Shown one piece after another: positions 5,155-64,000 of a DNA stretch of 64,000 bases. Origin of the DNA: Prorocentrum cordatum (lineage: Eukaryota; Sar; Dinophyceae; Prorocentrales; Prorocentraceae); contig CAUYUJ010000869.1 in the NCBI GenBank assembly GCA_963575745.1, forward strand, positions 137,501 to 201,500, written 5' to 3'. Within the stretch, counting starts at the first letter, position 1. The number at the start of each line of letters is the position of its first letter. The notes below the pieces were generated by a model. That model was not told the DNA's origin. It saw only the letters and a list, made by a program, of their open reading frames with translations, and made no database searches. The translations under genes and the position numbers were made by a program.

Positions 5155-5466
5155 TCTTTTCTCTTGGAATCGGGGTAGGATGCCAAAGGAATTAAGGTCT
5201 CGTGAACAATGCGCTCAGTGGTGGAGGGTCTGGGACGAGGCATCGATGAAACAATATATCATCAGCATGGCAAATGCTACCAAGTATGGGAAGGGAGGAG
5301 GCCGGCCAGAGACGGGCGACGACACGAGCCGCCCGCCCGCCCCCGGCGCGCTCCTCTTCGCACTTGATAAGCGAACAGCTTCAGCGCGCAAGTAATGTCG
5401 ACGATGTACAAGGCAGGCGGCAGCAGAGGCACATAATGATGAGGCGGAGAGCAGCATATTTACTCC
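5155..5466 (-). repeat. Element 1 3' LTR
   Basis: This 312-bp sequence is repeated in direct orientation at 29237-29548, and a diverged relative lies at 49659-50000. Similarity stops abruptly on both sides. The terminal bases are not the canonical TG...CA, so the exact ends may be off by a few bases. Confidence 0.85.
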
Positions 5467-5478
5467 CCCCGCGGCGGG
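5463..5478 (-). promoter_or_regulatory. Element 1 polypurine tract
   Basis: On the minus strand a G-rich run CCCGCCGCGGGGGGAG sits immediately upstream of the 3' LTR, the place where plus-strand DNA synthesis is primed in LTR retroelements. The same 22-base stretch (TATTTACTCC followed by CCCCGCGGCGGG on the plus strand) is present at element 2 (49991-50012). Position and conservation support the call; the primer itself is inferred. Confidence 0.6.
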
Positions 5479-5525
5479 TTACGTAAAGCAACTCCAGCCG
5501 CAGCCCGCCCGGCCTGTATATATTT

Positions 5526-5590
5526 ACAACCACTGGAGCGAACCCCACGAGCATTTTACCGCTCAACGGTGGTTGCCAGGGGGCTAAAGG
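5526..5590 (-). other. Conserved noncoding block upstream of the purine tract
   Basis: About 62 bases including ACAACCACTGGAGC and CTCAACGGTGGTTGCCAGGG are nearly the same as 50060-50121 of element 2, although the flanking sequence between the block and the LTR is diverged. It lies between the last coding block and the purine tract, so it is probably part of the 3' untranslated region. Its role is unknown. Confidence 0.6.
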
Positions 5591-5702
5591 CAGAAGAAAC
5601 CCGACGTGTCCCACCAATGATAAAATTGGGCCTCTCTCGTCGAAACGACTGGGTCGTTCGACTCGCGCCGAATCGACTGGGTCGTTCGACTTCCCTCCTC
5701 AC

Positions 5703-6524
5703 TCACTTCTTGCGCCAGGGGGACTGCGAGCGCGATGATCGAGCCGGAGGCCTCGAAGTTGAAGATGAAGAGCCTCCCCTCTGCCAGGCTGGCAGATGAG
5801 GCACAAAAGACTTGCCTCCTTTTCCAGGGCCAGCATATGGAGCAGGCCGAATGTGCTTGGACTTGTCCTTGTTCTTGTTGCATCCCTTGCCCTGGTCTCT
5901 CTGAAACCAGTGGTTGTACTCATTCTGGGACGCAAAGTGCCATGCACGACTTGCGGATTCCCTGCGCGCCTGCCAATGCACTTGGCCACGGTGCACCCAG
6001 AGGCCCACCACCTCACCGTACTCGGAGTTCTGCGGGTAGTGGCGCATGGGGCCCCAGGCGCCATCGCCACGGCCAGCAGCCATGGCTCCGCCGCGCCCGT
6101 GCGCCGTCATTGGCTGATCCCGCGCGCCCCCGTCTGGGGAACGCCTCGAAAGTTCATCGCCCGCCGATGCGGTTTGACCGCTGGCGGAGTGTGGAGACTC
6201 TATGGCATCATCACTGGCCCGAACGTCTTGGGCGCTGGGCGGTCTAGGCGGGACAGGTGGAGCCGGGCGGCCAGCAGGGCTTGGTCCTGCTGGCGCTGTA
6301 GAAGCCACCCCCGGAACGGCTGGGCCGTCGGAGGGGTCGTCTGCGGCTCTCTCCTCACGAAGACGTGTCTCGTGCTGTAACTTTGCATCCCTCGCAATAC
6401 CCGTCGCGGCAGTCGTCACGTAGGGACCGTAGCGTCCATTGGCAGTGCGAAGGGGGCCTATGTCACAGTCCTGTTCTGGGTTAGACTCCAAGAACGGGCA
6501 CAGGAAAACGACGGCGTCTTGCAT
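5703..6524 (-). CDS. Element 1 block H: terminal post-pol segment (273 codons)
   Basis: This is the last coding block before the 3' LTR. Upstream, homology to element 2 continues in another frame through 6458-6739 (DNRIRSAVHADDLVEEWSRD versus the element 2 DCRIRAAVETDDIIETWARK), so it is a continuation of block G across a frameshift near 6530. The shared part includes GPLRTANGRYGPYVTTAA (element 2: GPFRTAGGLYGVAAATAA). A Pro/Ala-rich linker follows, then a Trp-rich segment (GLWVHRGQVHWQARRE; element 2 GYHLHRDRITWLNDDD) and a Ser/Arg-rich basic tail. No known domain is recognised; the basic tail suggests nucleic-acid binding. Confidence 0.6.
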   Translation of the reverse strand: MQDAVVFLCPFLESNPEQDCDIGPLRTANGRYGPYVTTAATGIARDAKLQHETRLREERAADDPSDGPAVPGVASTAPAGPSPAGRPAPPVPPRPPSAQDVRASDDAIESPHSASGQTASAGDELSRRSPDGGARDQPMTAHGRGGAMAAGRGDGAWGPMRHYPQNSEYGEVVGLWVHRGQVHWQARRESASRAWHFASQNEYNHWFQRDQGKGCNKNKDKSKHIRPAPYAGPGKGGKSFVPHLPAWQRGGSSSSTSRPPARSSRSQSPWRKK

Positions 6525-7419
6525 GCTCCGCCGTGGCGACGGAGCTCGGCACGACGCTCAGTGCAAAGGTCGCGAGACCACTCTTCAACGAGGTCATCTG
6601 CGTGGACAGCCGAACGAATACGGTTGTCCAGCGCATATGCGTCGGTGCGGCGCTGTTCAACGTCGACTCCGTCGCATCGCTCTCGGCAGTAGATGTCAGG
6701 CGTGGGATAGGCGATGCAATATCCTTCGGCGAGAAACAATTGATAATCTTGCGGACAATCACAAATACACGCATGACTCGAAGGTCCAGGTTGAGCTCTT
6801 CAACGGGAGTCCTCCAACTCTGCTTAAGGGCCTCTCTCGCCGCTGTAGGAACCACATGTTCCAGCTCTCCCGTCAGGCACGACAAGCGCTGCCTGTCGGC
6901 CGCACCCTTTCCCGGGTGATGGCACATGTGCCCCATAACATACTGCGCCGCGACGCCGATGGAGTCCTGCGTCGTCGTTGCGACGCGCAGTGTGCCATCC
7001 TCACGTCGAGTGGTCACCTGTCCGTCGGGCGGATCTAAGGTGATCCCCCCTTTCAGCCACCGCTGGGTCTGGGGCCCGCAGACAGCATTAAAATCAAGGG
7101 GAATTGGAGCAGGCCTCTCGTCTCCTGTCGTCTCGGCTTGGCCGGCGACAAGTGTCACAGCACTGAGAGGATGCTTGGCGCAAATCTTGTTGCGCCTGGA
7201 TACTGACTTGGATGAGCGAGCAGAGCGAGCAGTGAGCTGCTGCGCCCAAGCAACAGGCGGACGTCCACGAGGGCTGGACCCTGCGGCGTCCGCGCCAGCA
7301 TCCTGCGCATCGGGCATCCAGGCCGCTACTCCAGAAAGTGCATTGTACACCGTCTGGAGAGTCGGCACAAAAAGTTCCTGTCCTTTCCTGGGCGCTTTCC
7401 CATTCTGCCCAGCCTCCAC
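6481..7419 (-). CDS. Element 1 block G: unassigned conserved post-pol segment (312 codons)
   Basis: The frame is continuous with block F by homology: ELFVPTLQTV here matches NLCVPTLATV in element 2, where the protein is unbroken, so a frameshift near 7385 separates F and G in this copy. Conserved features are RSSKSVSRR, DLRVMRVFVIVRKIINCF (element 2: GLRPVRIFEIIREIICYF) and a Gly-rich turn before it. No catalytic motif or known fold is recognised. The reading frame overlaps block H near 6481-6524 only because of another frame break. Confidence 0.6.
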   Translation of the reverse strand: MEAGQNGKAPRKGQELFVPTLQTVYNALSGVAAWMPDAQDAGADAAGSSPRGRPPVAWAQQLTARSARSSKSVSRRNKICAKHPLSAVTLVAGQAETTGDERPAPIPLDFNAVCGPQTQRWLKGGITLDPPDGQVTTRREDGTLRVATTTQDSIGVAAQYVMGHMCHHPGKGAADRQRLSCLTGELEHVVPTAAREALKQSWRTPVEELNLDLRVMRVFVIVRKIINCFSPKDIASPIPRLTSTAESDATESTLNSAAPTHMRWTTVFVRLSTQMTSLKSGLATFALSVVPSSVATAEHARRRRFPVPVLGV

Positions 7420-8341
7420 GAGGGCATGTGCTCATTTCGTCTTCGTCTGGCCAGTCAAAAGCAGCCAGAGGAGGGCATGAAAATGGGCGCGCGTACTGAT
7501 CGATGTCTGTGGCCCAAATCAGGGGCCACCACTCTGCGATCGTTGGCTCGTTGGCCTGTGCTCTCTGTACCAGAAACTCCAGCCACTTTACGAACCTCCT
7601 CTTGAGAGGTTCAAGGTACTGGAAGAAAGGTCCGCGGCGCGCCGGCGGCTGGGCCGCGGCGCTGTCAGGGGCCCAGGCAGGAACACTACCAGGGCGGCTG
7701 TTGCCAAAGGTTTGACCTGCAGCAGCCATCACGGCGCATGAACCGTTCGCCCACTCACGCTCCATCTTCAAGCTGGCATTGATGTTCGCCATGACATCCG
7801 CCGACGCTTTTCCCTGCCGCTGTCGTCTCGCAGAAATGTACTGATCTTGGCGGTAGGGCAAAGTGTCAGAATCATTAACGGTCAGCTCGAAGCCATTATA
7901 CCACTGCGTGTTTTCAATGGCTTGCGACTTATATGACTGGGGCCAATAATTGTGCGCAACCATGTGTTTGTACTTCACTGCGTGTGTGCAAAAGGGACAA
8001 CGGCCGAAGCCAGCACGGACCCAATGCAGTTGAGGGCACAGGAACCGACCGTCATCCGTCCAGGGGACGGACCCGAGGAACTCAGCTGCCCTTTCAGGCC
8101 AGTCCTTGAATTCTGGTCGCAGCGTCACCATCTCGTCGGTACGAATGCAAGCTAGCATGGGATTGATGTCGAAAACACCTCGTATGAGATCCACTCTTGA
8201 CTCAAGACAAGGACCCAAGAGGTCAATGGTTCGTTCGACCCTAACCAATATATTACCGTTGCAAGCTGGACAACTTTGTCGATGTCGGTGAATCTTGGCA
8301 CCTGACGGGACGCCAGGGTCCCGTCGCGGCAATCCCGGCAC
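7094..8341 (-). CDS. Element 1 block F: Cys/His cluster protein segment (415 codons)
   Basis: The frame contains GRFLCPQLHWVRAGFGRCPF, then C, and YKHMVAHNYW, giving a C-x14-C-x2-C-x10-H spacing that could bind zinc. Element 2 preserves it as GRFLCCRYHWARTVCANCPV followed by C and YRVSHDY. Next comes an Arg/Ala-rich helix and a conserved stretch FFQYLEPLKRRFVKWLEF (element 2 FFEYLRPLVKRFISWLEY). The start of this frame overlaps the end of block E (8152-8341) because of a frameshift; in element 2 the two are in one frame. Function is unknown; zinc binding is inference. Confidence 0.6.
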   Translation of the reverse strand: MPGLPRRDPGVPSGAKIHRHRQSCPACNGNILVRVERTIDLLGPCLESRVDLIRGVFDINPMLACIRTDEMVTLRPEFKDWPERAAEFLGSVPWTDDGRFLCPQLHWVRAGFGRCPFCTHAVKYKHMVAHNYWPQSYKSQAIENTQWYNGFELTVNDSDTLPYRQDQYISARRQRQGKASADVMANINASLKMEREWANGSCAVMAAAGQTFGNSRPGSVPAWAPDSAAAQPPARRGPFFQYLEPLKRRFVKWLEFLVQRAQANEPTIAEWWPLIWATDIDQYARPFSCPPLAAFDWPDEDEMSTCPRGGWAEWESAQERTGTFCADSPDGVQCTFWSSGLDARCAGCWRGRRRVQPSWTSACCLGAAAHCSLCSLIQVSIQAQQDLRQASSQCCDTCRRPSRDDRRREACSNSP

Positions 8342-10911
8342 GAGAAACGGGTAAGAACACGGCCATTAAAGACTAGAACGAGCGGCCAGGAATCTCTGTG
8401 CGTTGGGAGCTGGTCCCACAGACGGACTGTGTCCGCTGTGGGCCGCGACCCAATCGCAGAAGGTTGGCCCGCCTCGGGGGCTTGGCCCATTTGGCGAAAC
8501 TCCTTCGGGGGAGCGCACTCACCATCCGTGCGCTGGCTTAGCCAGGAGGGACATTGTTCTTGAAGTCGCATGGCCGGATTCCGCTTGGTCGGGAGAAGTC
8601 GCAACAAGCCATAATCCGACTCGAAACAAAATCCCGACTTGCTCTTGGGGTATTGGATGTCCCCGAGCATGGATGCCTTTAATGCGTCCATGTCCGTAAT
8701 GTGGAGAAGGGGGCCATGGCACCTGGCTAGGCCAGGGTCATAAGGCGCATACATTCTCTCAGTGGAAGCAACGAGCGTGGAAAGGCCCTGACACGCTCTA
8801 TAGAATATGGAAATGGGGCAATGGTGCCGACCGCCCGTATTATGGGGCCAGCTCCTAAAGTCCCTCCAGTGTTGGTAGAGCGTTGTGTCGCTAAGGCAAG
8901 CAATGGCGTCGGGATGGATGCCCGAGACTTCCACGGTCCCTGGCTGCAACGCGGCTAGGCCGTGTGCAGCAAGGGCCATTGTTTGGAATTTGTTTCCATC
9001 TTCTTGCATGTTATCGATTAGGTCTCCGAAATAGACCCAACCTCCCGAGGACCTTGCGTAATCGGGACAATGTCTCGCGAGGTACGCAGCAAGCTTTCCG
9101 ATGCGCCTCGAAAACCCATCCGTCCGATAGCTGTGGCGCTGCCAAAACCCCGTACAGCCAAGGGCTGTCGGGTTGTCGGCATCAGAGACGCCCACGGCCA
9201 GCGCAGTCATGGCCTTGTAGGCCCGAGAATCAAATCCTTCGGGGGCATCGCCAGAGTGAAATGCTGCACGAAGGTATCTTCTCGTCTGCTCAAAATTCAT
9301 TGGCTCGAGGGTAAACTCTCCTAGCAATGCGAATATGGGATCCTCGACGAGCTCTGCTATGTATTTGAGCGCGTCAAAAGCACGCTCACGAAGGGCCTCA
9401 ATCTTAGGAGGTACAGGACCAGTGGTGTGAGCCTCTCGATTTCGCCGCTTCAGCTGAGCAGGCGTGTTCTGTATAATTTGAGCCCGCTCATTCTCTGGAA
9501 GATAGCGGCCCCTACCCTTGAATGTGTCGGCGTGGCCGACGACGACCTCGTCTCCGCGCTGGCGGGGCGGATCATCCGTCGGGAGAGGCTGCCGCACATC
9601 AGGAGAGGGCGGCAGGGTCTCTCGGCAAAAGAAGTTTGTCGCCGTTGGGCCGAGCCGACAGTCATCATCATCGGGGTAAACTGTTGCAGGGTCGCCCTGG
9701 TATGGAAAAACAGCGAGGTCAGTGATGGGCGGGCTGGTCTCAATAGACTCCGGCATGTCTGGGGCACCCGGAGCTCCTACTGCAGAAGAGGGCTCCGCAA
9801 CGTCTTGGCCGCTCGGAGCGGCGACTGGTGGGGCCTCCTTCTCAGCGGGCTCAGCCTCAGCATCAGGGGAACTGCAGGGCTCCTTGGTGGTGGACGCATC
9901 CGCATACCTCGCCTCGAGCTCAGTCTGTCCTGTGGGAACAGCTTCCATATCAACCTCCATTGGTTCACTTTTTATTGCTGTATCGCCCGAGCTGGCTGGG
10001 CCAGCCGGGCCAACAGGCTGCGCAGGATCATGCATTGCCCCCTCCGCTTTGGCTGGGCCAGGCGGAGCAATGGCAGCAGGCTGTGCGTCAGATACCGCAT
10101 TATCCACCATTGCTGGATCCTGTGGGCCAGCTAATGGGGGAGCGGGAGCTGCAATCACGGAAGCTGCCTGTGCGGCCTGAGCCGCTTCTTGAGCTTCGGT
10201 GTCTTCATCCTTCTTAAAGTCAGGAAGTTCCTCTGCCGCGGCTGGGCCGGGCAGGGGCGCTGACACTTCCTCCGTCGCGGCTGGGCCGGGTGGAGTTGGA
10301 AACACTTCCACTGCCGAGGCCGCGCTGGGCGGAGATGGAAGCACTTCCTCTGCCACAGCTGGGCCGGGCAGAGGCGCTGGAGGAGTAGGTGCCGTAGACC
10401 CACCAGTGTGCGCACCGCTCTCTCTACGAGTCTGTGAGCTCTCGCTCTGGGCGGCAACTTCAGGAGTGGGACTGAAACCAGGTACCTTACCGCGGATAGT
10501 GTCCGCAATGGCGGTTGCGTATTTCTCCCACGGAATAGAGTAACCGCCTGGTTCATGCCGGCCCCTTTTCATGGCAAGCATGTATTTATACTGTGCGGAG
10601 ACGATGTCAACCTCCATCTCTTCCAAACCATCTGGGTCAACCATGGTCGGTTGTCCCTTGAATGTGGCGCTCCTCCACTCATTAAACCAGTCACGTTCTC
10701 GCTCGAGGGCCTTGCGGGCACGATTATCCTCAAAATGAGTATGCGAGATCTCGCGAATGGACTGGACCATGCGGGCTGCAGCGTCGCCCCCCCCCCGGTG
10801 CCTGAGACTCCTCTGAAGAGGGATCCGCAGCCGACTGAGGCGGGGGAGGGGCCACAAGAGTGGACAAACCCTCAGAGCCGCCGGGGCGGTTAGAGCCCCC
10901 ATCCTCGGCAA
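8152..10911 (-). CDS. Element 1 block E: Tpt1/KptA (RNA 2'-phosphotransferase)-like domain with a long acidic/Pro-rich N-terminal half
   Basis: This is a 919-codon frame. Residues 1-140 hold a charged helical part, 140-400 a Pro/Ala/Glu low-complexity linker, and 440-590 a conserved helical part (VVVGHADTFKGRGRYLPENE, then GPVPPKIEALRERAF). Residues 600-785 carry the features of tRNA 2'-phosphotransferases: an Arg-His pair at 613-614 (YLARHCPDYA), a GW-V-x-F-x-DL turn (624-631), the RACQG motif at 705-709 and an HG dipeptide at 732-733. Tpt1 enzymes use R-H, R of RAxQGHS and HGT to bind NAD+ and the 2'-phosphate. Here the His of QGHS is Leu (QGLS); element 2 retains QGHS. The fold assignment is an inference from motifs and order. 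Confidence 0.6.
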   Translation of the reverse strand: MPRMGALTAPAALRVCPLLWPLPRLSRLRIPLQRSLRHRGGGDAAARMVQSIREISHTHFEDNRARKALERERDWFNEWRSATFKGQPTMVDPDGLEEMEVDIVSAQYKYMLAMKRGRHEPGGYSIPWEKYATAIADTIRGKVPGFSPTPEVAAQSESSQTRRESGAHTGGSTAPTPPAPLPGPAVAEEVLPSPPSAASAVEVFPTPPGPAATEEVSAPLPGPAAAEELPDFKKDEDTEAQEAAQAAQAASVIAAPAPPLAGPQDPAMVDNAVSDAQPAAIAPPGPAKAEGAMHDPAQPVGPAGPASSGDTAIKSEPMEVDMEAVPTGQTELEARYADASTTKEPCSSPDAEAEPAEKEAPPVAAPSGQDVAEPSSAVGAPGAPDMPESIETSPPITDLAVFPYQGDPATVYPDDDDCRLGPTATNFFCRETLPPSPDVRQPLPTDDPPRQRGDEVVVGHADTFKGRGRYLPENERAQIIQNTPAQLKRRNREAHTTGPVPPKIEALRERAFDALKYIAELVEDPIFALLGEFTLEPMNFEQTRRYLRAAFHSGDAPEGFDSRAYKAMTALAVGVSDADNPTALGCTGFWQRHSYRTDGFSRRIGKLAAYLARHCPDYARSSGGWVYFGDLIDNMQEDGNKFQTMALAAHGLAALQPGTVEVSGIHPDAIACLSDTTLYQHWRDFRSWPHNTGGRHHCPISIFYRACQGLSTLVASTERMYAPYDPGLARCHGPLLHITDMDALKASMLGDIQYPKSKSGFCFESDYGLLRLLPTKRNPAMRLQEQCPSWLSQRTDGECAPPKEFRQMGQAPEAGQPSAIGSRPTADTVRLWDQLPTHRDSWPLVLVFNGRVLTRFSCRDCRDGTLASRQVPRFTDIDKVVQLATVIYWLGSNEPLTSWVLVLSQEWISYEVFSTSIPC

Positions 10912-10938
10912 CCTCAGCCTTCGCGTTGGCGACCTCAG

Positions 10939-13292
10939 TCATCGCCGCAGCGACCTCGGCCTTCGCCGGCGGACTTGCCCCAACACCGCCTTGGACGGGC
11001 GGGGGAGTCCGAGGAAAAGGCTTAAGCGGTAGCTGCGGAGGCGCTGGATTGGGCGCAACGTTGACTTGCTGAAGCCGAATATCGGTGCACGCTGGGGGCC
11101 GAGCGGAATATCTCGGAGGCGCGGGCGGAGGCGGGGGACGAGCTGCGGCCTGCGCACTCTGGGGTGTTGGCCAAGCCTTTGGCTGTTCCTCCGTCGTCGC
11201 GGCGCCTGCCGGCTTGGCCGGTGGCTGCGCCGCTGTCGGCGCGGCGCTAGCCGGCTGGGCCGGTGGCCGCTCCGCTCCTGGCGCGGCGCTAGCCGGCTTG
11301 GCCGGTAACTGCTCCGCCTTTGGCATAATGCTCGCCGGCTTGGCCGGTGGCGGCTCCGCCTTTGGCGCGACGCTCGCCGGCCTAAACGGTGGCGGCTCTT
11401 TCTTCGGCACGACGCCCGCCGGCTTGGCCGGCGGCGGCTCTGCCTTATAGTCGCGACGCTCGCCGGCTGGACCGGTGACGGCTCCTTCTTTGGCGCGACG
11501 TTCTTCGGCTCGTCCGGTGGCGGCGCCTCCCTCGGCGGAGGTGGAGGCGCTTCCACTGTCGCGGCTGGGCCGGGCGGAGGAGGAGGCACTCCCTCTGCCA
11601 CGGCTAGGGCCGGGCGGAGGAGGAGCACTCCCTCTGCCGGCGGCCTCGGCCGCGCCAAAGGGGGAAAATCTTCAGGCGTAAAGGAGGGAGAGGCGCCGGA
11701 CGGCTTGGCCGCCTGCGCCTGGGCGTCAACATCGGCTGAGGCGGCCGATGTCTTCTCTTTGGCCTTTGCTTTATTAGCCTGAATGAGCGCGGTGGACACT
11801 TCCGAGGCTTCAGCTTTGTGCAATGGGTTGATTCTATTCATGATTACTCCCTTGCTGTGAAGCCACGGCCAAATGTCATCAAACTCTGGGCGATATGCCC
11901 TATATGGGCTACGATCCTGTTGCCACTGAATGGGCCCCAGGTCTGGCACCCATTTTCTCTGCGCCTCGCAGACTTGGTCCGTGGCGGCTATCCCTGCAGC
12001 GTCGCGACAACGTTCAACCCCGAAGTCTTGCTCCAGGGCGTAGTTTTCTTTCCTGGCGACATGCTGCAGGAGAGAATAGCCCTCAATGACATGAAGAGCC
12101 GAGGGCGTCCAATGGTACAAGCGAGGTTCGCTTAACACGATCTGGGACGCGTCAAGCGTGCAGTACAGCACAGGCTTGCCCTGGATCGGCATGGGCTTCG
12201 CATAGAAAATGATCTCCGCTGTTGCCCTGATGCCGTCTCCAAATGTCTCCTCGGCGACGGCATAAGTGGCGTGAGTTGCGGGGTCGCCGTCAACGGAAGG
12301 GAATGAATACACGCCCACCTTTCCACCTTTAACGCTACCGCCGTAGCGGGGATCTGATGGAAGCAGCTGGTGGCCCTCCAATACCGAGTGGAGGGCATTC
12401 ACGGACGTACCGTGGAACTGCTTACTCCACCCTGAGTCCTCATCTTTGAGCTCATGTAGCTTTTCCGTCGTGACGAAGAAAGGCAAAGTGAGCTGCGTAC
12501 AGCGTGCGTTCCCTGCCTTGTGGGTCTTGGTTGACAGCTTCGCCCAGTTCAGGCGATCGGCAACTGCGGCCTCAAGGCCCTCACGAGTGCGATCAGCCTT
12601 GTTGACGAAGAACCGTGCCCAATTAGTAACCATATATGAAGGCTCGAGAAGAGGGGTCTTAGTGGGCGTCTGCCGCATCTGGTGGCCCAACCAAGCATCA
12701 CCCTTGGCGTGCAATTGGAGGGTCTTGAATGCTTTACCACGGTCCGGATATTTCCCGGCCATCAAAGATGCGACTCGGTCTTCGTACTTTTCCCCTGGCC
12801 AGCAGTTCGCTGTGCTCATCGGCCAATTAAGGTTGCCGCTGCGCACAGTGAACGGTTTGAGAAAATCGAGCTGCTGTGTCTCTTTAGTCGAGGGATTAAG
12901 ATAGGGCAAACTCACAGTGGTCTGATACAACTGGTGCACAGGCCAATCGCACTCCCAATCATATCCTTGGCAGGGTTGCCGCCGGCTTTGAGACGTATGG
13001 GGAAGCGTTTTCCGCCGAGCCTTCCTGACCCGTAGGCAGAGCATTTTCGGCGGATGGCCTGCTCCGCCTCTTCGCCGGGCGTCTTGGCATCCTCAACGCA
13101 AGTCACGGGAGCAAGTGCAGGTGCGCGGAGCGGCTGGGCCGCCCGCTCTGCAGTGACTTCACCCGAAGCGGCTTGGCCGCTGGGTTTGGCAATAGGCACT
13201 ATTTTCGCCTGCTCATTTTTCACGGCACGCATATGTTGATCATTCACAACTCCCTCCGGAGGCGATCGGAGGCGCTCCCCTTTCGGGGGCAT
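10939..13292 (-). CDS. Element 1 block D: ADP-ribosyltransferase-like (HGT) domain, one frameshift
   Basis: The block begins in one frame (12912-13292, with GVVNDQHMRAVKNEQ, matched by GVQNDEPMRAVRKEL in element 2) and continues after a frameshift near 12960 as a 701-codon frame (10939-13044). Residues 205-285 of the latter read WSKQFHGTSVNALHSVLEG, then GGKVGVYSFP, ATYAVAEETFGDG and TAEIIFYAKP. The HGT, the G-V-Y about 33 residues later and a second Tyr near 261 are arranged as in ADP-ribosyltransferase/PARP-type folds, where His and Tyr hold NAD+. Element 2 conserves all of these. A third catalytic residue was not identified. The C-terminal part is a Pro/Ala/Lys repeat region. Confidence 0.55.
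11166..11510 (-). repeat. 42-bp in-frame minisatellite (about 7 copies) in the block D tail
   Basis: GCCGGC-TTGGCCGG-type sequence starts at 11208, 11250, 11292, 11334, 11376 and 11418, then 11462, i.e. every 42 bp. On the minus strand each unit encodes a 14-residue Pro/Ala/Lys/Glu repeat (PAKPAS...PKAE type), so copy number changes keep the frame. Element 2 has a Pro-rich tail in the same place but without this regular array. Confidence 0.8.
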
Positions 13293-13384
13293 GCCTGGAC
13301 AAAAGGGGAGACATCATGGCAGGAAATATCGCAGTTCCCGCCACACAGAAAGCCCCTCGTGGTCATTTCCTCGTCTGAGAAAAA

Positions 13385-14460
13385 TTAACGAAATTGTCCG
13401 AAAGCTTGGAATGAATGGCCCCTTTCCCCTGATCCGTCTTGGACGGCAGGGAGCCTCGAGGGGTCCAAAGGTGTCCGAAAAGGACGAGTGTTGAACACGG
13501 ACTGAGGCACGTTAGTATCAGTGGGGCTCCACTCGTGCCAGTACTTGACTAGCTCTCCGAAGGTAGCCTCCGCTGCTGTGTGCCCGTCATCTCGCCTGTT
13601 CGACGAGGGCCGACCCCCCGCTACGGCTGGGCCGCCGGAGGGTTGGCAAAAGAACAAAGCTGCAAGCCTCGCGGCCTTCAACATATGTTCAGTGAACATC
13701 TCGGCCGCCACGCAACTCTCCATTTGTCCGTCTCTGTCTATCTTGTAGTCATTGTGAGCTGACAGAAAATGGTACGAGTCGCCATTAGGGTGGTGCGTCT
13801 GGCGGCAAAGGCACGCACCATCAAGAATCATGATGCGTGGATGTATCCCCGCGGCCTTGTAGTCCTCAATCCGACGGTTCATCTGAGCTCGGACAAGGGT
13901 GGCCACGTCATCCCATAATGGGTCGACTTTGGAGCCGCCGTCTGGGGACTGCCAACACCTGTGGTCTCCGCCAATGTACAAAATCTCGATCGCACCATCA
14001 GGCGAGCGCTTAACCGCTTCGTCTATGATGCGATCAGAAGTCTCGAGCATTAGTCGGAGGGCTCCAGCAAGAATCGTCGGGTTCTCGGGCCGAGAAGGCA
14101 TCCCCAGCTTTCCCTCCACACGAATGCCAAGCAAATCGTGTGTTGCCGGGTCAGCAACGTCATTGAAGGACCAAAAGACAAATCGCACTGGTGTATGAAC
14201 TCCCTTCTTGTAATGCTCATGCCCGTAGTCCGACCAGCCATTCCCGGAGGTCTGGGCCTCGGCAGCCCCCCATAACATTGGCGGACATGCCATAAATATG
14301 GTCGGTCAAGAAATGTTTGACATGAAACCCTGGCGCGACGCTCTTACCGGCCGCCGTTTTGAACGAGACCGTAGAATCGGAGACAAGATGAGCAGTGCAG
14401 GACCAGAACTTGCATGTCTTCGTGGCTTGCATCTTGCACAAAGGGTGGAAAAAGTTCGTG
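13385..14460 (-). CDS. Element 1 block C: possible SGNH-hydrolase-like domain, one frameshift
   Basis: The block starts in the frame 14217-14570 and, after a frameshift in a C-run near 14268, continues as 13385-14293. Conserved with element 2 are a strand-like segment ending in a Ser (WSCTAHLVSDST; element 2 WSCSVHIVTDST) and VRFVFWSFNDVAD. Further on come ILYIGGDHRCW (element 2 IMYVGGDSTCW), RIMILDGACLCRQ and a D-x-x-H (NGDSYHF; element 2 NDDAFHF). An early (S/T)DS, a central GG-D after a hydrophobic strand and a late DxxH is the order of SGNH hydrolase blocks I, III and V. The block III Asn is not present, so this is a tentative fold guess. Confidence 0.45.
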
Positions 14461-14770: not shown

Positions 14771-14805
14771 CCATTGGCACTGGGTCAGGGGGCCCACCTC
14801 CGCCG

Positions 14806-18110: not shown

Positions 18111-18254
18111 GGGCGCAAGCGTGGCAAGTCTGGGAACGAAGTGCCAACGTCTTAGACTCTTTCCGTGCTGAGTCCAGTGGTCCTTCTTGTTTGGAAAGTT
18201 AGCGGCAGCAGCAGGGGGAAGGTGAGGAAGAAGAAGGTTGTAACCAAGCGTGTA

Positions 18255-40012: not shown

Positions 40013-40029
40013 ATTCGAATCCATGTTGA

Positions 40030-51231: not shown

Positions 51232-51264
51232 GGCATATGCGTCGGTTCGTCTCTTTGACTCGAT

Positions 51265-55643: not shown

Positions 55644-55914
55644 TGAAAATTGAATGCCGGGCGGCTTAGCCGCTGGCTGCAGTTTCTCGCCCCCTTCAGC
55701 TGCCCTCTCTTTCTCCTTTGTATTTTGCTCGACCAGCTGAACTGATCTATTCGAGGCCTCGCCCCTATGTATGGGGTGAATCTTGGTCAGCCTGACTCCT
55801 TTGTCTTGGAGCCACGGCCAAATATCATCGTATTTTTCTTCGTCTGTTTCGCCTTCCCCCCTAGGGGGGCGCGCCCTTTTGCCAGTCGAATGAGGTCAAG
55901 CCAGGGACCCAAGC

Positions 55915-57448
55915 CTATTGAGCATCGCGGACTTTGTCCGTGTGCAGGGTCCGTTCTGGGGCTCGGTACCTCTCAAATTCAAAGTCCACCTCCAAATTCC
56001 ATCCTTTATCTCTGGCAATATGCAGCACATGCGTACATGCTTGGGTAACCCATATGGCAGCTGCAGTCCAATGATAAAGCCTCAAGTCGTATAAAACGTC
56101 AGTCTCTGGATTGCTCACGTATTGAGTCGGTGATCCTCTAATGGATTTGGTCGTCTTGGCATAGTAGACAATCTCGGCCGTAACCCAGATGCCGTCACCA
56201 AAGGTCTCCTCCGCGATGGAGTAGGTGGTGTGTGTGCTGAGGTTTTCAGTACATGGGAACGAATACACCCCAACTGCATTTGTCTTCACGCTTCCGCCGC
56301 ATTGAGGATTTGACGGAAGCAATTGATGCCCCTCCAAAATAGCATGAAGCGTCGACACTGACGTACCATGCGACTGCTTTGTCCAGCTGGTGGATGGGTC
56401 TGAGACCTCCGCACGCTTTTCTTTTGTCAGGAAGAAAGGCAACGCTAATTCAACGCAGTGGGCTTTACCCGCATTATGGGATGTCAACCTCAAATCTGCC
56501 CAATTCAAGCGATCGGCCACGGTGGCATTCAGCGTTCGTATCGACCTGTCTGCTTTGATCCTGAAGAAGCGAGCCCAATTTGGCACTAGATAGTTCGCGG
56601 TCATCGGTGGAACCCTCGTCGTTGGCTGAAGCATCTGGTGGGCAAGCCGCACTGGGCTACTCGCGTCTTTTAGGATCATTTTCCGTTCTAAGCTGCAAGG
56701 TGGATCTCTTCCCTCGGCGACCTCAGCAGCTCGCCCCTCTTCGCCTGGGCATGCGTTTAACGGCATCATGTCCCGGCGAAGTTTGCTGCTGGCGACCGGC
56801 GACCGTGAATGGGCAGAGGACGTCACGACGAGCAACCTCACCCGTCTTTGCGTCTTTCATCGGCAGGTTCTGTATGTGCTGATATTCCTTATGGATCGGC
56901 CACAAATATTCTTCCTCTCCAGGATATCCTTCTTTCGGCCTCTTTGGAAACTTGCTCTTTTGCCGTTTACTAATCAAAGTCAGCCTACCCTCGGGACAGC
57001 TTTCACGAATGCTCCTTTCAGCTGTTTCCCCGGGGGCTTCGATATCCTTAACATCGGTCGCAGGAGCCAACATGGGAGCGCGCGGCGACTGGGCCGTCAT
57101 TGCGCTAGAACCAGAGCCCGTTCTGGCTGAGCCGACGGGTTTTGCCTTGTCAGTCGCGACACCAGTTCCGGGCTGGCCGGTCGTCAAAACTTTAATAGAT
57201 ACGGGGATCGCGATGCCCCCTGGTGTTGCACTGCTCGCCGCAACGGCTAAGCCGCTCGGCGCCGCCGTCGGTGCTGCTTCATTGAGTTCCTTGCGTACGG
57301 CACGCATTGGCTCATCATTCTGGACCCCCTCAGTCGCTGGTCTCTGCGTCTTCCCCCTCGGCGGCATTCCCGGACAGAATACTTTTCCTCGGGGCAAAAA
57401 ATAAGCATCATCTTCCCATGGGAAGAAGGCCTCATAGACACCTCCCAT
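55915..57448 (-). CDS. Element 2 block D: ADP-ribosyltransferase-like (HGT) domain, two frames
   Basis: The N-terminal frame (56723-57448) has GVQNDEPMRAVRKEL and YPGEEEYLWPIHKEYQHI. The second (55915-56841) has NWARFFRIKADRSI, LALPFFLTKEKRAEV, WTKQSHGTSVSTLHAILEGH, NAVGVYSFPC, TTYSIAEETFGDG and LRLYHWTAAAIW. His-Gly-Thr, the G-V-Y, the second Tyr and F-G-D-G are all shared with element 1, although the surrounding sequence has diverged, which suggests these residues are constrained. The ADP-ribosyltransferase fold is an inference. Confidence 0.55.
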
Positions 57449-58490
57449 TTTAAGGAAGTCTTTAAACTCATCTGAATAGAACGAATACCTGGCACTGCCT
57501 CCAGTTCCATTCGCAACGACAAGGAATTATTCGTCGTCCAGTTTTCTATACATGGGAGCGTTCCAAGTACTGACCTGGGGATGTTACCTTCTGTGGGGGA
57601 CCAGTCCTGCCAATGCATGATAAGATCTTGGACTTTCGCCTCCTGTTTGGCGTGCATACCCTCCCTCGCAGGACAGGTTACGCGACCTTCGCCGACGGCT
57701 GAGCCGCCGGCAGGTTGACAAAAAAATAGCACGGCCAGCTTGGCCGATATAACCATGTATTCGACACACAAATCCGCGGCAAGGTCATTTCGGGATTTTC
57801 CCCCGTCAAAAACTTGATAGTCATCATGTGAAGCACAGAAATGGAAAGCATCATCGTTGCGGTGCCTCAGCTGGCGATATAGGCTGACACCGTCGAGAAT
57901 CATTATTCAGGGGAACAACCCTATCGATTGAGAGTGTTCAATCCGACGGTTCATCCTGGCTCGGACCATGGTGGCAACATCATCCCACATTGGGCCGACG
58001 CCGTCATCACCTATTTGCCAACACGTCGAGTCCCCGCCGACATACATTATGTCGATAGTCCCCTGTTGGGACCGTTTCGTTATGTCGTCGATCAAATCCA
58101 CGGCATCCTTTATCATCTGCCTGAGACTCCCTGCGAAAGTAAAAGGGTTCTCAGTTCTTTTGACTCCACTGCCTACTCCGTTCAATTTGCCCGATTGGTC
58201 AACGATGTCGTTGAGATTCCAGAAAGTGAAACGAATTGGGGCGGTTGTCCCTTCATTATAATACCATTGTTCGCCCCATTGAAACTTCGCGGAGTCTGCG
58301 GCAATGCCGTTGAGTAGTGCTCCACTTTTAGCCGACTGTGCGCTTCCAAATACCAAATTTCGCATGTTAAATTCAGGCATGAGGCTCGGCTTAGGCGCCC
58401 CTGATGCGTCCTTGAACGTACTTGTGGAGTCAGTCACGATGTGTACGGAACATGACCAACTACGATAATGGCAGTTTTTTCATCTTGGTT
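57247..58490 (-). CDS. Element 2 block C: possible SGNH-hydrolase-like domain, two frames
   Basis: Frame 57907-58437 begins within VHIVTDSTSTF and continues with IRFTFWNLNDIVD and DIMYVGGDSTCW. Frame 57247-57903 has ILDGVSLYRQ, RNDDAFHFCASHDDY and LAVLFFCQPAGGS. The break is a single stop/frameshift near 57905 between PR and MILDG; element 1 reads straight through (HPRIMILDG). The conserved (T/S)DST, GGD and DxxH residues are discussed under element 1. Confidence 0.5.
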
Positions 58491-58747
58491 AGAGGCCGGA
58501 AGAAATCCGCCACGGGTTTCCCCGTGGCTAACATAGTGGCGAGGTCTTCTCCGGCGAATGGAATCCACGAGTGACCATGGACCTCGGCGATCTTTGTAAT
58601 CGCCTGGCATTTTTCGGCAAAATCCAGGTTAGCCGACCAGAATCTCAATTTGGGGTCCGTGACCTCGATATAAAGGTCCAGGATTTCATCTACTATTACT
58701 CGCCATTCATCCCAGGGAGGCGGAGCTCGCCCAAAGCTCCCTTTCAT
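58460..58747 (-). CDS. Element 2 block B'
   Basis: An unbroken 95-codon frame with EILDLYIEVTDPKLRFW, VHGHSWIPFAGEDLATML and FFRPLTKMK, matching the frameshifted copy of element 1. It joins B to C. Unassigned. Confidence 0.6.
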   Translation of the reverse strand: MKGSFGRAPPPWDEWRVIVDEILDLYIEVTDPKLRFWSANLDFAEKCQAITKIAEVHGHSWIPFAGEDLATMLATGKPVADFFRPLTKMKKLPLS

Positions 58748-60100
58748 GCGAAGATACTCGAGGACGTTCCACGGGCCACGACCGATGCACGGTTTGTCTT
58801 CTTGCTCGGGTTCAGGCGCTGCGGGCCCCGAGTCGGGCGGCCCACCTCCTCCTCCCCCCCCCCCGAGGGGGGGTCATCACGTGAGGGAAGTCCGCCAGAT
58901 GGTGGCTGACCCACTCCGTCGCCGGCTGAGCCGGGGGGGGGGGCGCCACCATTGCCTCCACTGGCTAAGCCAGGAGGATTCTCAGCGCAGGGAGGCTGGC
59001 CAGCTGGTGGCTCGCCAGCTGCCTGTTTCGCATTCCCACGATCATCCAATGATGGCTGATATTGGCCCACAACTGCTGGTTGGCAAGTCTTGGCGATCGG
59101 GTCGTCGGGCGTCTCCGTTGCATTATTTGGCTTCTTTTGTGGCGAGTCCTCATCCTCATCCGGGTTGAGTCCGTCTTCGGCAAGCCATTTCTCAAAGTTC
59201 CGTGGCCTCTTCCAAGGACGTTGTCTCTTCCTCCAGTGCACTGCCTGCTTAGGTGCGTCCCCGAAGTATGCTGCCTTAGCGGCGGCAGTAAGAGCTTCTT
59301 CGACCACGTGCACGGGCGCGCCGTATTTTCCGTTTACCACACTGGAAAAGCGAACATCGCCCCCCACCTTTCCCCAACAGCTGAGCCGTGGGGAGGCTTC
59401 CGAGAGGAAGGCGTCCAAATATCAATCCAGACGTTTTGAAAGCCTTTCTCCCTGTGTTCTGCCACTGGTACACTCACATAACTGCCCCAGTGGTTCTCGC
59501 AGTAAACTGCCGGGCCGACAGTGGGACCAAAAACTTCTCCCGGTTCGAGCGCTCTGATTATACCACGAAAGCTCTCGTCTGGGGGTTCTGCGTACACCCT
59601 ACTGATCAGCTTCGTCTTTTCGTCAAGATACGTTTGGAGGAACGTTCCCACGGGGATTTTGTCGACGTCAGGAGGGGCACAATCGAAACGGCAAGTCTCC
59701 TTCCGTTCAAACATAGTCCAATGTGCGGTCCACGGGTCCTGGGAGATCTGGGAGTATAAACGCTGGAATATCGTCTGAGACGTTGTTTCCAGGTCCGCCC
59801 TCAATGCAGTCACGACGGCGTCATTTCTCGTGTAAAGTATGTCGTTCTTCCACATTGTGTAGCGCCAACCCCAGCCCTTTGACGGCACAAACTTGATGGT
59901 TCCGTCTCTGGGTCCCGCACGGCACCACTCCATTAGTTTATCAGGGAGGCACTTGAAGACTTCTTTGTTCCTCCATGCCTCGACGTCTTCCACATCGGGG
60001 CCAGTCACTTTCTTTGAGCGAGAATTGTCCTGGGGGGCAGTTGTCATTTCAGCATCATGTTCTGATATAATGTCATTTGGACTGAACTGTTCATGTCCTG
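58744..60100 (-). CDS. Element 2 block B (two overlapping frames)
   Basis: Frame 59334-60587 carries the tail of the A-B linker and then FVPSKGWGWRYTMWKNDIL, NDAVVTALRADLETT, DPWTAHWTMFERKETCRFDC, GEVFGPTVGPAVYC and GERWGAMFAF. Frame 58744-59418 continues with VVEEALTAAAKAAYFGDA and an acidic/Gly-rich tail. It is less broken than in element 1 and is the better reference for this unassigned domain. Confidence 0.6.
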
Positions 60101-60402
60101 ACCCATCCGGCTGAGCCGGTGGGCAAGCCATCCCGCTCGGCTGAGCCGGCGTTGAGGCTTTTCGAATTGTGGCGAGGAGAGCATGATTATAATCCTCTCC
60201 CTCTCTGCCCTTGTCAACAACAACGTCGGAATCAATTTCATCCATGATGTCGTCAGAACAGATTGAGATCGCGTCATCACCCAGTGTTCCGTCCGCCTTC
60301 TTCGTCAGCGGACGACGCATGGGTTCAGTCGTCGGTGTCTCCAGCACGCGGGGACCGCGGCAAGCGAGATTCGAGCAGTCGCGGCAAGGCAACCGCTCGC
60401 CT

Positions 60403-61439
60403 CTACGGGGGGCCGGTCGCGGGGCAACCCGCGCAGGCTGTTGAGCCGAAACGGCAGCGGCGCAAATAGGATTGATAAAAGAGGTAGGATGGCGATGAGA
60501 CGACTTGCTTGGCGAAATCATCGGTGTAATCTTCAGCGCTCTTACACTCTCTTCTCCTAGCCTCAACATGCTCGCGTGCGCCATCACATCTGCGTTCTAA
60601 CCCCTCCGCAACAATGGGAGAAGTGGTGGCTATCGTCCAGGGCTTTTTCATGAAATTGCCCTTACTATCCTTCAATCCGCACGCGCGCCCGCGCAGCGCC
60701 GTCTTGGCAAATCCCAACTCTCGAGGGAAACTCTTTACCTGAGGGTCTCTCAAATTAGTACATTGGGTAGGCCATTCGATACATGCAATGCCTCCCGCTT
60801 TGTGCACGGCACGGGCAATCTCACGGAAATTCCAAAATAAATAACGGAAATCAGTTCTAATGCCCCGAAGTCTGCGCATGGCTCTGTGGTTTCCGGCGCG
60901 GAAGTAATGCGCCTCGTTCGCACGCTGCCAAGGGGGGCCTCCTGTGCACGGCATGGAGCCACACAGCGTAATATGTTTTCCCTCAAACGCAGCTATGTCG
61001 TGAAGCGCTATTTTGAGTCCCTCATCCCTCCTCATATCTTCTTCTTCAGTGTACCGAATCACTTTGCACGAGCTGTCAAAGAAATTCTTCGGGTTTCCTA
61101 TTCTACTTTGTGGGCCGCAACAGCACTCTAATAAAAGCCTTTCCCCGGTCCACTGAGTGGCCAGGGCGCAACCTTCTTGGATTTCAAATTCTGCGCATCC
61201 CGTCCATTTGCTAAACAATAATCACCGTCGCTAGAATCGCCATCTGAATCATATTCAACTGGGTGATGATATCTGCTTTCTTCGTCACGCCAATTATCGA
61301 TGCGATCTATCGTCAAACCTTGTTGAGAGTTGACGGCATATGTGCGACGTTTATCATCAAGCTTATCAATCTCGACGGGACAACCGCCCATTGTCGGCGT
61401 ACATGTGACAAGTCTTGGGACATAGCGATGTCGTATCAA
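60403..61439 (-). CDS. Element 2 block A: methyltransferase-like domain, core in one frame
   Basis: Frame 60403-61218 holds the whole core: ERLLLECCCGPQSRIGNPKN (glycine-containing first loop, residues 27-46), LCGSMPCTGGPPWQ (Pro-Cys at 90-91), TDFRYLFWNFREIARAVHKA, ACIEWPTQC (Glu-Trp-Pro at 148-150) and GLKDSKGNFMKKPWTI. An N-terminal extension lies in 61128-61439 (YVPRLVTC, RRTYAVNSQQGLTIDRIDNW). These residues are the ones shared with element 1. The domain is about 220 residues, shorter than a typical cytosine methyltransferase. Catalysis is not established. Confidence 0.5.
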
Positions 61440-61783
61440 AGTATTGCCTTGCCTCGTCCATTCATTCCTTTTGACAGAGAAGCATCCTCCCTGTTTTCAA
61501 GTCTCTTGGAAGGCTCTGATTCGCGTTCACTGTCCGATATTCCAAACGTGGTTTTCATCTCACGATCGGAGCTTCTTTTCGTTGCGTTTTCAATCGCTCT
61601 CGTTTTCTCGGAGCTTCTGCTGTAACACTCTTTGCCCATTCGAGGAGTGACATTACCTGCAACATCGGCTGAGCTGACTGCATTCTTCGTCCTTAATAAC
61701 CCCTCGGCTTGGCCGGGGGCAGCCACAACGGGTTTACCTTTGTTGGGGCGTTGTTTCTTTTTGTTTGACTTTTTGCTAGGCAT
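61436..61783 (-). other. Element 2 basic linker between RNase H and block A
   Basis: The sequence KKSNKKKQRPNKGKPVV and a Ser/Glu/Arg-rich part follow RNase H. They are connected to it across a frameshift in the run of C (plus strand) at 61830-61839, and to block A across another near 61440. Confidence 0.55.
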
Positions 61784-62489
61784 GGCAGCTCCTCTCCGCA
61801 GGGCCAGGCCCAGGCGGGGCTTCAGACCCCCCCCCCCCGGGTTTCAGGGGAAGTCCGTCAGACAACATCGAATCAAGATAATCAAGGTACCGCTTAGCGG
61901 CCCAGAGCCTAGGCGTCACTATGTTGACGAGGTATAAAACTTTGACCCATGCCATTGGGTCAACGACTCGTTTTGTTCCAATATCTGCAGCCTCGTTTTG
62001 TGTTCTTTCATATTGTAACTGAACAAGGCCACGAGAAAGTTGTTTGGACACAGCTGCTGCATCAATTCTATGCGTGCTTGGTAGGTGCATCAGCTTCATT
62101 GACCCGCCTGCTTTGATGACTTTGCAAACTGCTCGGTTATCTTCCAAGAACAAACATCGCGCAGGTCTATCCAGCAGGATCTCCCACAGCGGCAATGCCG
62201 CAAGCAGCCCCTTGCGTAACGCAAGGCCGGCCGCAACGATTTCGGCTTCAAGGGTGCTATGAGAGACGCATGTTTGTCTTTGCGAACTCATCGATTGTCC
62301 CGCCCGTGTATATGGGCCCCATATGGCTTGGTAACTCGCGCTCGTGCTCCTGTGTGTTCGGATATCACTCGCCAGATCTGCATCAGAGTACTGTTTTAAC
62401 AGAACATCCTCCTTCTTATCACCCACCCACGAGGTCATACGATAATGAGATGTACACTTTATATACCATATTAGGCGGAAGAGTTCCAT
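61776..62489 (-). CDS. Element 2 RNase H
   Basis: Motifs as in element 1: QYSDADLASDIRTHRS, CVSHSTLEAEIVAAG, CLFLEDNRAVCKVI, STHRIDAAAVSKQLSRG and NEAADIGTKRV. The Asp following IVAA in element 1 is Gly here; the catalytic Glu and Asp are kept. The frame starts after a shift near 62540 relative to the RT. Confidence 0.85.
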   Translation of the reverse strand: MELFRLIWYIKCTSHYRMTSWVGDKKEDVLLKQYSDADLASDIRTHRSTSASYQAIWGPYTRAGQSMSSQRQTCVSHSTLEAEIVAAGLALRKGLLAALPLWEILLDRPARCLFLEDNRAVCKVIKAGGSMKLMHLPSTHRIDAAAVSKQLSRGLVQLQYERTQNEAADIGTKRVVDPMAWVKVLYLVNIVTPRLWAAKRYLDYLDSMLSDGLPLKPGGGGSEAPPGPGPAERSCHA

Positions 62490-64000
62490 ATCTTGTTGTT
62501 CTGTCCATTTTGTGATGCAACTGGCAGTTTGAACACGGCACGGAGTAAGTCATATCTTGCCATTCTAGCCCCGTAATGTATTTTCATCAACACTTGTGCT
62601 GCAATTGGATGAAGCACTCCCGACTGAGTCGGTGGCTCAGGGCCATCAGGGCTAGCTGCTGCGGCATCGAGGCCAATCACCTCTATTTCTTGATCAGGAG
62701 GGCCGGTGTCAACGTTGATCTGTAACGCTGATGCTACAGCCTCCTCAGCTGGGGAGTAAATCTCTCCTCTGGGGCCGCCCTGTCCGTCTTCTAGGTCAGT
62801 AAGTTCTGGACCGAACGGGGTACCCGCGGCCAGATAAGTGGCCGGGTCTGTGTCCGTTAATTGAGCATATAAGGTAACACAGGAATCGAACAACTCAGTC
62901 ATATCGTATTCGATGACTTTTACTAATTTAGGGTCTCTCGGCTGGTATGGCTCGGTCATCTGAGATGCCGAGTCACCCCCCGTTTCCTCCTCGCTACTCT
63001 CGTCTGTGACGGAGGCGTTTTTCTTAACTTTTGGAGGAGGCGGGTCGAGTACAGCAGGTAACTCTCCGCGCCACTCAATTGTCTGAGTTGATAATCTATG
63101 CTCGCATCCGAAGTATCGTCCAACAGCTGTTGGAGGATCTATTTCTATGCCCTTAGGGCAATTTTCCGAAGGTTCTTGAAGCAACTTCCATCCCTGGGCA
63201 AGCTTGTCGGCAGGTCCCGACAATTTAAAATCATCGACATAGATGATCAAGAAAATTTGCAATTCTTTGTGGAAATAACAGCTGCGCCACGGACTACATT
63301 TCACAAAACCTTTCACCGTGACATGTCCCTCGCAATGCTGTTCCCAGTGCCCGCCCGAATCAGGGTGTCCGTGCAAAGATAAGTACAGTGGACACACAGG
63401 GTTCCTCATGTTGGACCATGCTTTGGGCCATTCATCACAAGGCAAGAAAACCCAAGTGGGAGTTCCTCCCAACTTTGATTGTGTGTAAGCTTGTCGTGCG
63501 TCAGCTTGTTCGATGCGATGGACTTCAAACAGCCCGTAAGTATCGGCTGCTTTGCTGGCCTGCATTGTCGCGGGACTGCTGGAAAGTTCCTGACATAGTG
63601 CCGCGTCTTTGTTTTGATCTCTAAAAACTTGAACCGTCAAAGACCACCCGACCTTTGTACTTGCGGCCATTGCGCCCCAGCGGTAACTCTGAGTTCGTTT
63701 CAACAAGGATCGCAAACAAGCGGCCAACATGGGCCGTTTTCCCTTTTAGTTCTGCAGCAACATCGGAATATTCCCTAACACCGTCTTCAATCCATGTGCC
63801 AATGTCTCGCAGTCTGTCCGACTCTTTTCTCAAGGCAGCTTGAGCGTCTTTGTTTGCCTTTGCCTCGTCTTTCGAGACAGATCTGGCTACAGCGGCATCT
63901 ATGCGGGCGCATTGCCAGTCATTGGGAAGTTGGAAAGGCTCACCAATGACATATATTATATATGTAAAAGGATTATAAAAGTATTGCAAGTCAAATCTTT
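62471..64000 (-). CDS. Element 2 reverse transcriptase (copia type), one frameshift
   Basis: Frame 63621-63989 has NPFTYIIYVIGEPFQLPNDW and GRVVFDGSS, and after a one-base shift near 63635 frame 62471-63730 continues with VQVFRDQNKDAAL, DARQAYTQSKLGGTPTWVFL, LIIYVDDFKLSG (YVDD at 63230-63241), GRYFGCEHRLS and the conserved acidic insertion. Protein similarity to the element 1 RT is high. The upstream part, with integrase, protease and Gag, lies outside the window. Confidence 0.88.

Follow-up and report, generated by a model that had tools for sequence, protein, structure and literature searches.

The question raised by a 64,000-nucleotide window of the genome of the dinoflagellate Prorocentrum cordatum (assembly GCA_963575745.1, contig CAUYUJ010000869.1, positions 137,501 to 201,500 of the forward strand; all positions below are counted from the first letter of this window) is what two very long retrotransposons lying within it, here called E1 and E2, are doing with so much coding sequence downstream of RNase H. 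We find that E1 and E2 are decayed members of a single abundant lineage of giant copia-type retrotransposons with long terminal repeats (LTRs), that the extra sequence (the cargo) forms part of the element's own polyprotein and has been kept by selection, and that one cargo block likely corresponds, in diverged form, to the N-lobe and QGHS loop of the RNA 2'-phosphotransferase Tpt1/KptA. The anatomy of these giant elements and the selection acting on them are parts of the picture about which we feel little doubt; the function of the cargo is considerably less certain and is discussed after them.

The assembly containing the window comprises 4.13 Gb in 21,875 contigs, and the last 8.6 kb of E2, which lie outside the window, were fetched from the same contig. 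The terminal repeats of E1 measure 312 bp and are 91.7% identical, with no matching target-site duplication seen in its flanks; those of E2 measure about 342 bp, are 96.2% identical and are bordered on both flanks by the target-site duplication TGGAG. The greater divergence of its LTRs indicates that E1 inserted before E2. The internal regions are 23.8 kb (E1) and 22.3 kb (E2) long, and stops and frameshifts disrupt both. The stop-free pieces of E2 nevertheless align to E1 as one colinear series from the reverse transcriptase (RT) through the 3' LTR, with amino acid identities of 82% in RT and 30–72% in the cargo pieces. Third codon positions are the most divergent in the coding frame, and the stretch of LTR and 3' untranslated region (UTR) shows a weak codon-position bias (0.22/0.19/0.28). 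Because of these identities and the third-position bias, the likeness of the two cargoes goes beyond chance. The original prediction, made from the window alone, had described the same extra blocks in the same order downstream of RNase H, and this is what we see, including all six of its motifs (CRFDCAPP, GPTVGPA, RACQG, HGTS, GSMPCTGG and EWPTQC) in both elements; its labels A–H were not mapped one by one, the block names used here being our own. Between the elements (29549–49656) no stop-free piece of at least 50 amino acids resembles element coding, so that this part was rejected as element sequence and the stretch 5155–64000 is not element throughout.

The assignment to copia comes chiefly from RT. 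Single RT sequences of the E1/E2 family stay below detection by the Pfam RVT_2 model; a profile of the family (13 of 32 rows kept, with L012 duplicating E2 and short or stop-containing rows left out; hhalign used five of the 13) was therefore compared with six RVT_2 matches of the same genome, giving an hhalign probability of 95.6, an E-value of 1.2e-8 and a score of 61.5, against a peak of 23.3 among 60 column shuffles. The order protease, integrase, RT, RNase H was read from motifs in E1, the integrase-like motifs sitting between protease and RT by eye only, and Pfam returned no match for the E1 integrase-like piece. By RT and terminal repeats E1 and E2 are copia-type LTR elements, in keeping with the original prediction of two diverged giants of this kind. 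A giant of the Burro type, known from planarians, was considered and set aside, as Burro has a gypsy-type pol and the RT found here is copia-type. The RVT_2 model itself has 8854 candidates in the genome; the best 150 of them and the 137 RT places described below have five contigs in common, at different positions. Since none of these 150 coincides (by eye) with any of the 137 places, they belong to other families.

When the genome was searched for relatives of the E2 RT core, 4041 first-look candidates came up, and all 137 that were scored have E-values of at most 4.3e-155 and 79–100% identity. From these, ten copies were chosen for reading 10 kb downstream, giving preference to long open frames and then to lower identity. 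The block order is colinear in all ten for the blocks found, which number 7 to 11 of 11 per copy (RNase H counted as one), and the Tpt1-like block was recovered in eight. A second search, with the E2 Tpt1-like block (1820 candidates, 137 scored), allowed the two sets to be compared: at least 48 of the 137 scored RT matches are paired with a scored Tpt1-block match 6.5–11.1 kb downstream on the same strand (median distance 9.3 kb), against a chance expectation of 0.05, with no pairing upstream and none on the opposite strand. Because the block order is common to the copies, a single acquisition of the cargo, predating the divergence of the sampled copies, is probable. Independent capture by E1 and E2, the alternative named in the original prediction, is disfavoured by the order kept in ten of ten copies and by the pairing of RT with Tpt1-block matches.

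That the reading frame of Pol runs on into the cargo is indicated by open frames in other copies. In four of these (L042–L045), single stop-free frames bridge neighbouring blocks from RT to the Tpt1-like block (table 1); the frames are unrepaired, and at least one real copy reads through each junction. Projected on E2, the frames form an overlapping series between 62767 and 52949, reaching about 3,000 codons beyond RNase H, with Ala/Pro-rich linkers joining the blocks; the last block (H) is not bridged. Because the open frames overlap all the way, the Pol polyprotein is a single enlarged one that extends past RNase H by about 3,000 codons, up to the Tpt1-like block.

Selection on the cargo was assessed by the ratio of non-synonymous to synonymous substitution rates (dN/dS). 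Between E1 and E2, where synonymous sites are mostly saturated and the ratio is given only where computable, cargo rows range from 0.13 to 0.52, with the maximum in a linker; the ratio is 0.86 for the LTR/3'-UTR stretch, and 0.88 and 1.48 for two rows that lie in other frames. Comparison of E2 with four closer copies gives cargo values of 0.18–0.38 in 36 of 36 rows of at least 30 codons, all of which share E2 and are hence non-independent, and 0.11–0.17 for RNase H. The cargo maximum of 0.38 comes from one half of the Tpt1 region, followed by block C at 0.37 and the Pro-rich linker at 0.36; more distant comparisons with E2 (L047, L051 and E1) are mostly saturated. Pairwise ratios understate the constraint, because they include neutral decay after insertion. 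Purifying selection thus preserved the cargo in the copies tested, as had been proposed, and the value near 1 in all blocks that would mark neutrality was not observed.

Which functions were preserved can be addressed best for the Tpt1-like block. Tpt1 enzymes remove the RNA 2'-phosphate with the use of nicotinamide adenine dinucleotide (NAD+) (PMC6333775) and are able to ADP-ribosylate 5'-phosphorylated RNA ends, and an Arg-His-Arg-Arg set is named as essential for them (PMC6582358). The profile of the block aligns to the KptA family (Tpt1/KptA/TRPT1, PF01885) over the Arg-His helix, the GW..DL stretch and the RAxQGHS loop, in the same order, with an hhalign P-value of 0.004, or 4.9e-4 when the domain of a second family (see below) is included; earlier two- and three-row profiles had given 0.0084 for this block and 0.11 for the block with the HGTS motif. 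None of 100 column shuffles reaches the score against either of two KptA targets (29.9 versus at most 25.5; 29.3 versus at most 24.8), whereas against the same targets the score is reached by 4 and 12 shuffles per 100 for the HGTS block, by 61 and 61 for the SGNH-like block and by 70 and 70 for block A. KptA also comes top of 13 Escherichia coli proteins (23.2, versus 20.2 for the next). The Arg-His pair is present in 7 of 8 covering rows, the loop Arg in 5 of 5 and the exact QGHS in 3 of 5, the deviations being QGLS in E1 and RGHS in L043 (L044, which drops out of frame ahead of the loop, is excluded from the loop counts).

Several observations weigh against this assignment. PF01885 scores over its cut-off in none of 11 rows of the block, the Tpt1 structures in PDB are matched neither by the E2 piece nor by the three-row profile, and the hhalign probability against KptA is at most 32%. 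An unrelated pair, the SGNH-like block and E. coli Dcm, scored 28.4 with none of 60 shuffles as high; since we take this match for chance and reject it, a score near 30 is by itself no proof of homology. The spacing of the conserved stretches is longer than in Tpt1, and behind the QGHS loop the NAD-binding C-lobe, with its HGT stretch and fourth catalytic Arg, is not recognised by eye; an HGT stretch is present in the separate, upstream HGTS block, for which an AlphaFold model reached a confidence (pLDDT) of 30 and was not used. The block is, moreover, absent within 10 kb of RT in two of the ten fetched copies: in L046 the blocks from SGNH onward lie about 3 kb further out, so that the later ones are displaced, and in L047 it was not found, without apparent reason. 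Because the NAD lobe is not recognised and the loop of E1 reads QGLS, the block may bind RNA without catalysis. On balance, we consider homology to Tpt1/KptA likely. Relatives of either RT or the Tpt1-like block were not found in IMG/VR.

The original prediction regarded the blocks in general as enzyme-like, which is borne out only in part: apart from the Tpt1-like block, for which the comparisons above speak, none of them matched a Pfam or PDB family in our searches. Pfam gave nothing over a cut-off for single pieces of E1 and E2, PDB nothing meaningful for four cargo blocks by sequence or profile, and a database of 5.8 billion proteins no relative for two cargo queries (the top 8000 candidates being scored for each query). 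No family could be assigned to blocks B, C, D and H in the Pfam and PDB searches made. The HGTS block resembles the HGT...VGVY core of ADP-ribosyltransferases, and KptA ranks first for it among the 13 E. coli proteins (19.1); the block has no ADP-ribosyltransferase or PARP match in Pfam and no match in PDB. In the SGNH-like block, the block I serine is seen by eye in 6 of 7 covering copies, ND in 7 of 8 and DxxH in 8 of 11; its profile matches no lipase in Pfam or PDB and does not support an SGNH hydrolase in comparison with TesA, against which 28 of 60 shuffles score as high. Block A has methyltransferase-like motifs read by eye and no meaningful Pfam or PDB match; a C5 cytosine methyltransferase is not supported by profile, 50 of 60 shuffles scoring as high against Dcm (one sequence). 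The esterase-, ADP-ribosyltransferase- and methyltransferase-like readings of these blocks are thus motif-based.

A canonical Tpt1 domain occurs elsewhere in the same genome, within an apparent second giant element of copia-like make-up. PF01885 has 2877 candidates in the genome, and all 150 that were scored exceed the Pfam cut-off. The top seven (95–186 bits, in frames of 231–439 amino acids) may be host genes; the rest score 71–92 bits, many of them in open frames of 1000 to 4482 amino acids. One such giant frame out of the 150 matches, on contig C16964, was read in detail. It spans 2941 amino acids and holds, in order, gag-like, zinc-knuckle-like, Tpt1, RING and protease-like stretches; Tpt1 (88.7 bits against a cut-off of 26, E-value 6e-25) and RING (E-value 1.1e-8) lie in one open frame. 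After one stop follows a 1668-amino-acid frame with stretches that are block-A-related and integrase-like, and then an RT-like piece with HVDD. As the gag, knuckle, protease, integrase and RT assignments are by eye and Pfam matches none of them, the label copia-like is based on motifs together with a stretch shared with block A, in which 64 columns near the C-terminal end of block A match the second family (P 9.6e-6; none of 60 shuffles as high). Unlike the block of E1 and E2, this Tpt1 domain is canonical and retains equivalents of the Arg-His-Arg-Arg set, the fourth Arg by eye, the aligner having put it beside a gap.

What could a retrotransposon gain from such cargo? The element protease might release the blocks as accessory proteins packed with the element RNA, where the Tpt1-like block, perhaps together with the HGTS block, would act on phosphorylated ends or 2'-phosphates of that RNA and so repair or protect a very long RNA genome before or during reverse transcription; an RNA of 23 kb would be easily broken, and a domain repairing or capping its ends would pay for itself. 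An RNA-end step appears the most likely theme because canonical Tpt1 is also found in the apparent second giant copia-like family. It is conceivable, if tentative, that the copia-like giants of one genome took up a Tpt1 domain at least twice, in different parts of the polyprotein, which would imply a step of RNA end repair, ligation or NAD-dependent capping in their life cycle, of a sort that LTR elements are not known to have. The particular mechanism sketched here we regard as a little more doubtful still. As a whole, a giant copia lineage with selected polyprotein cargo and a Tpt1-like RNA-end role would be the best explanation of the data, with a probability of roughly 60%.

Its main rival, possible though on the unlikely side, is that the cargo consists of effectors directed at the host, for instance blocking silencing or modifying host chromatin or RNA. 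Such a role has been suggested for Burro elements of planarians, with regard to their apoptosis and ubiquitin domains (PMC6431247), and considered for the DNA methyltransferases (DNMTs) of Symbiodinium retrotransposons (PMC5890265), and the RING domain of the second family and the methyltransferase-like motifs of block A, whose C-terminal part recurs in that family, would fit it; the failure of block A to resemble Dcm beyond shuffles or to match Pfam or PDB meaningfully speaks against it. We consider it improbable that the cargo replaces env, with the esterase-like and other blocks aiding membrane passage in elements that are or were virus-like: the position behind pol, the SGNH-type motifs largely kept among copies and the GDSL ORF3 of bdelloid LTR elements (PMC5408684) agree with this, but the SGNH-like profile does no better than shuffles against TesA and finds no lipase. 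Passive carriage of functionless fragments captured from host genes would suit the broken state of both elements and the lack of a family for most blocks, but is very hard to reconcile with dN/dS well below 1 in every cargo row and the order kept in all ten copies.

The E1/E2 lineage shares single features with several described systems. Burro, a Ty3/gypsy-like element of planarians, likewise has more than 20 kb inside its LTRs, thousands of copies and one enormous multi-domain polyprotein, but its pol order is protease, RT, RNase H, integrase, its domains (MATH/TRAF, BIR, BCL2-like, env-like) are unlike those of E1 and E2, and several of its extra domains precede the protease, whereas the cargo here follows RNase H (PMC6431247). 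LTR elements of bdelloid rotifers also carry an enzymatic open reading frame (ORF) in the env position behind pol (ORF3, a GDSL esterase or DEDDy exonuclease), but there ORF3 stands apart and encodes one or two enzymes, instead of some eight blocks, one of them esterase-like by motif, in the polyprotein frame (PMC5408684). The retrotransposons SymbioLINE-Dnmt and SymbioDIRS-Dnmt3 likewise come from dinoflagellates and carry a modifying enzyme that was captured and is under purifying selection, but they are of LINE and DIRS rather than copia type, and the Copia superfamily is reported in that study to be devoid of any DNMT domain there (PMC5890265). The claim that no described copia lineage has this set holds as far as the open-access literature goes, to which our search was limited: we found no report there of copia elements with the E1/E2 cargo or of a retroelement Tpt1. 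Novel here would be a copia-type giant with this cargo; giant gypsy polyproteins, enzymatic ORFs behind pol and captured DNMTs were already known.

Table 1. Positions of E1, E2 and their parts, of the frames bridging cargo blocks in other copies, and of the second Tpt1-bearing element.
Feature	Position	Strand	Basis or remark
E1, LTR to LTR, 24.4 kb	5155..29548	-	LTR pair 91.7% over 312 bp
E1 5' LTR	29237..29548	-	primer-site-like stretch just inside, 29205-29236, by eye
E1 3' LTR	5155..5466	-	purine-rich tract just inside, by eye
E1 gag region (pieces)	24275..29340	-	ORFs; E2 match; CCCH zinc-finger-like motif by eye
E1 aspartic protease	23584..24399	-	Pfam Asp_protease_2 E 0.017, under cut-off
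E1 integrase-like	22275..23258	-	HHCC and D..E motifs by eye; 69-80% amino acid identity to E2 pieces, coding frame
E1 RT core	19622..20473	-	82% amino acid identity to E2; family related to RVT_2
E1 RNase H region, AADIGTKRF-type end	18682..19389	-	E1/E2 comparison
E1 block A (GSMPCTGG, EWPTQC)	17129..18197	-	C-terminal part common to second family
E1 block B (CRFDCAPP, GPTVGPA)	15316..16171	-	no family found
E1 block with SGNH-hydrolase-like motifs (DST, ND, DSYH)	13481..14420	-	motif only
E1 block with HGTS motif, ADP-ribosyltransferase-like	11959..12846	-	motif only
E1 Tpt1/KptA-like block (LARH, GGWVYFGDL, YRACQG)	8173..9792	-	profile and motif comparison
E1 last cargo block (H), no family assigned	6521..8176	-	match to E2
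E2, part inside window	49657..64000	-	continues to 72634
E2 3' LTR	49657..49997	-	target-site duplication TGGAG at left
E2 5' LTR, beyond window	72293-72634	-	96.2% identity to 3' LTR over 342 aligned bases
E2 RT core	62771..63622	-	match to E1; RVT_2 relation of family
E2 RNase H region	61833..62543	-	match to E1
E2 block A	60406..61481	-	match to E1; dN/dS
E2 block B	59092..60017	-	match to E1; dN/dS
E2 SGNH-like block	57535..58479	-	match to E1; one internal stop
E2 HGTS block, ADP-ribosyltransferase-like by motif	55918..56796	-	match to E1
E2 proline-rich linker	54852..55862	-	open frames; dN/dS
E2 Tpt1/KptA-like block	52766..54358	-	match to E1; one internal stop
E2 last cargo block (H), no family assigned	51121..52765	-	match to E1
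Bridging frame, RT end to start of block A	L045 1-1725		sense coordinates of locus
Bridging frames	L044 1110-2348; L042 1684-2874; L044 2560-3549		sense coordinates of loci
Bridging frames	L042 2878-4152; L045 3288-5312; L042 4125-6542		sense coordinates of loci
Bridging frames	L043 5502-7007; L045 6111-7325; L042 6886-8217		sense coordinates of loci
Bridging frames	L044 8115-9866; L043 8855-10000		sense coordinates of loci
Second giant element, L052-L054 (Tpt1 in L052)	G000:C16964:191501-212500	-	canonical Tpt1 and RING between gag-like and protease-like stretches

The surroundings of the two elements contain further repeats. On the left flank of E1, an Exo_endo_phos domain, as in the endonuclease of long interspersed nuclear element (LINE)-type elements, lies at 1897–3372 on the minus strand (E-value 2.6e-10, over the cut-off) and is perhaps a LINE fragment. 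Between E1 and E2, arrays of an 82–83 bp unit stand about 7 kb apart (41513–42463 and 48886–49348) beside CCT/TCC tracts, and units of 11/21/32 bp with sequences like GGGGCCTCTTG form long arrays at 32323–33372 and 36828–37806. The roughly 320 bp at 40013–40332 have many relatives in the genome, mostly 70–79% identical among the 40 of 2165 candidates that were scored, and perhaps represent a short non-coding repeat family. A perfect 24-bp tandem repeat (47129–47197; 2.9 copies, 100% matches) lies within a plus-strand open frame of 574 amino acids (45735–47456) that has no Pfam match.

Giant LTR elements with multi-domain polyproteins have been known from planarians, where they are of the gypsy type. 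A copia-type counterpart in an alga, with thousands of candidate copies and selected cargo, would show such growth in another superfamily. A retrotransposon-borne Tpt1 would, if true, link LTR retrotransposition to RNA 2'-phosphate chemistry or to NAD-dependent modification of RNA ends, and giant elements equipped with it would help explain the growth of such large genomes.

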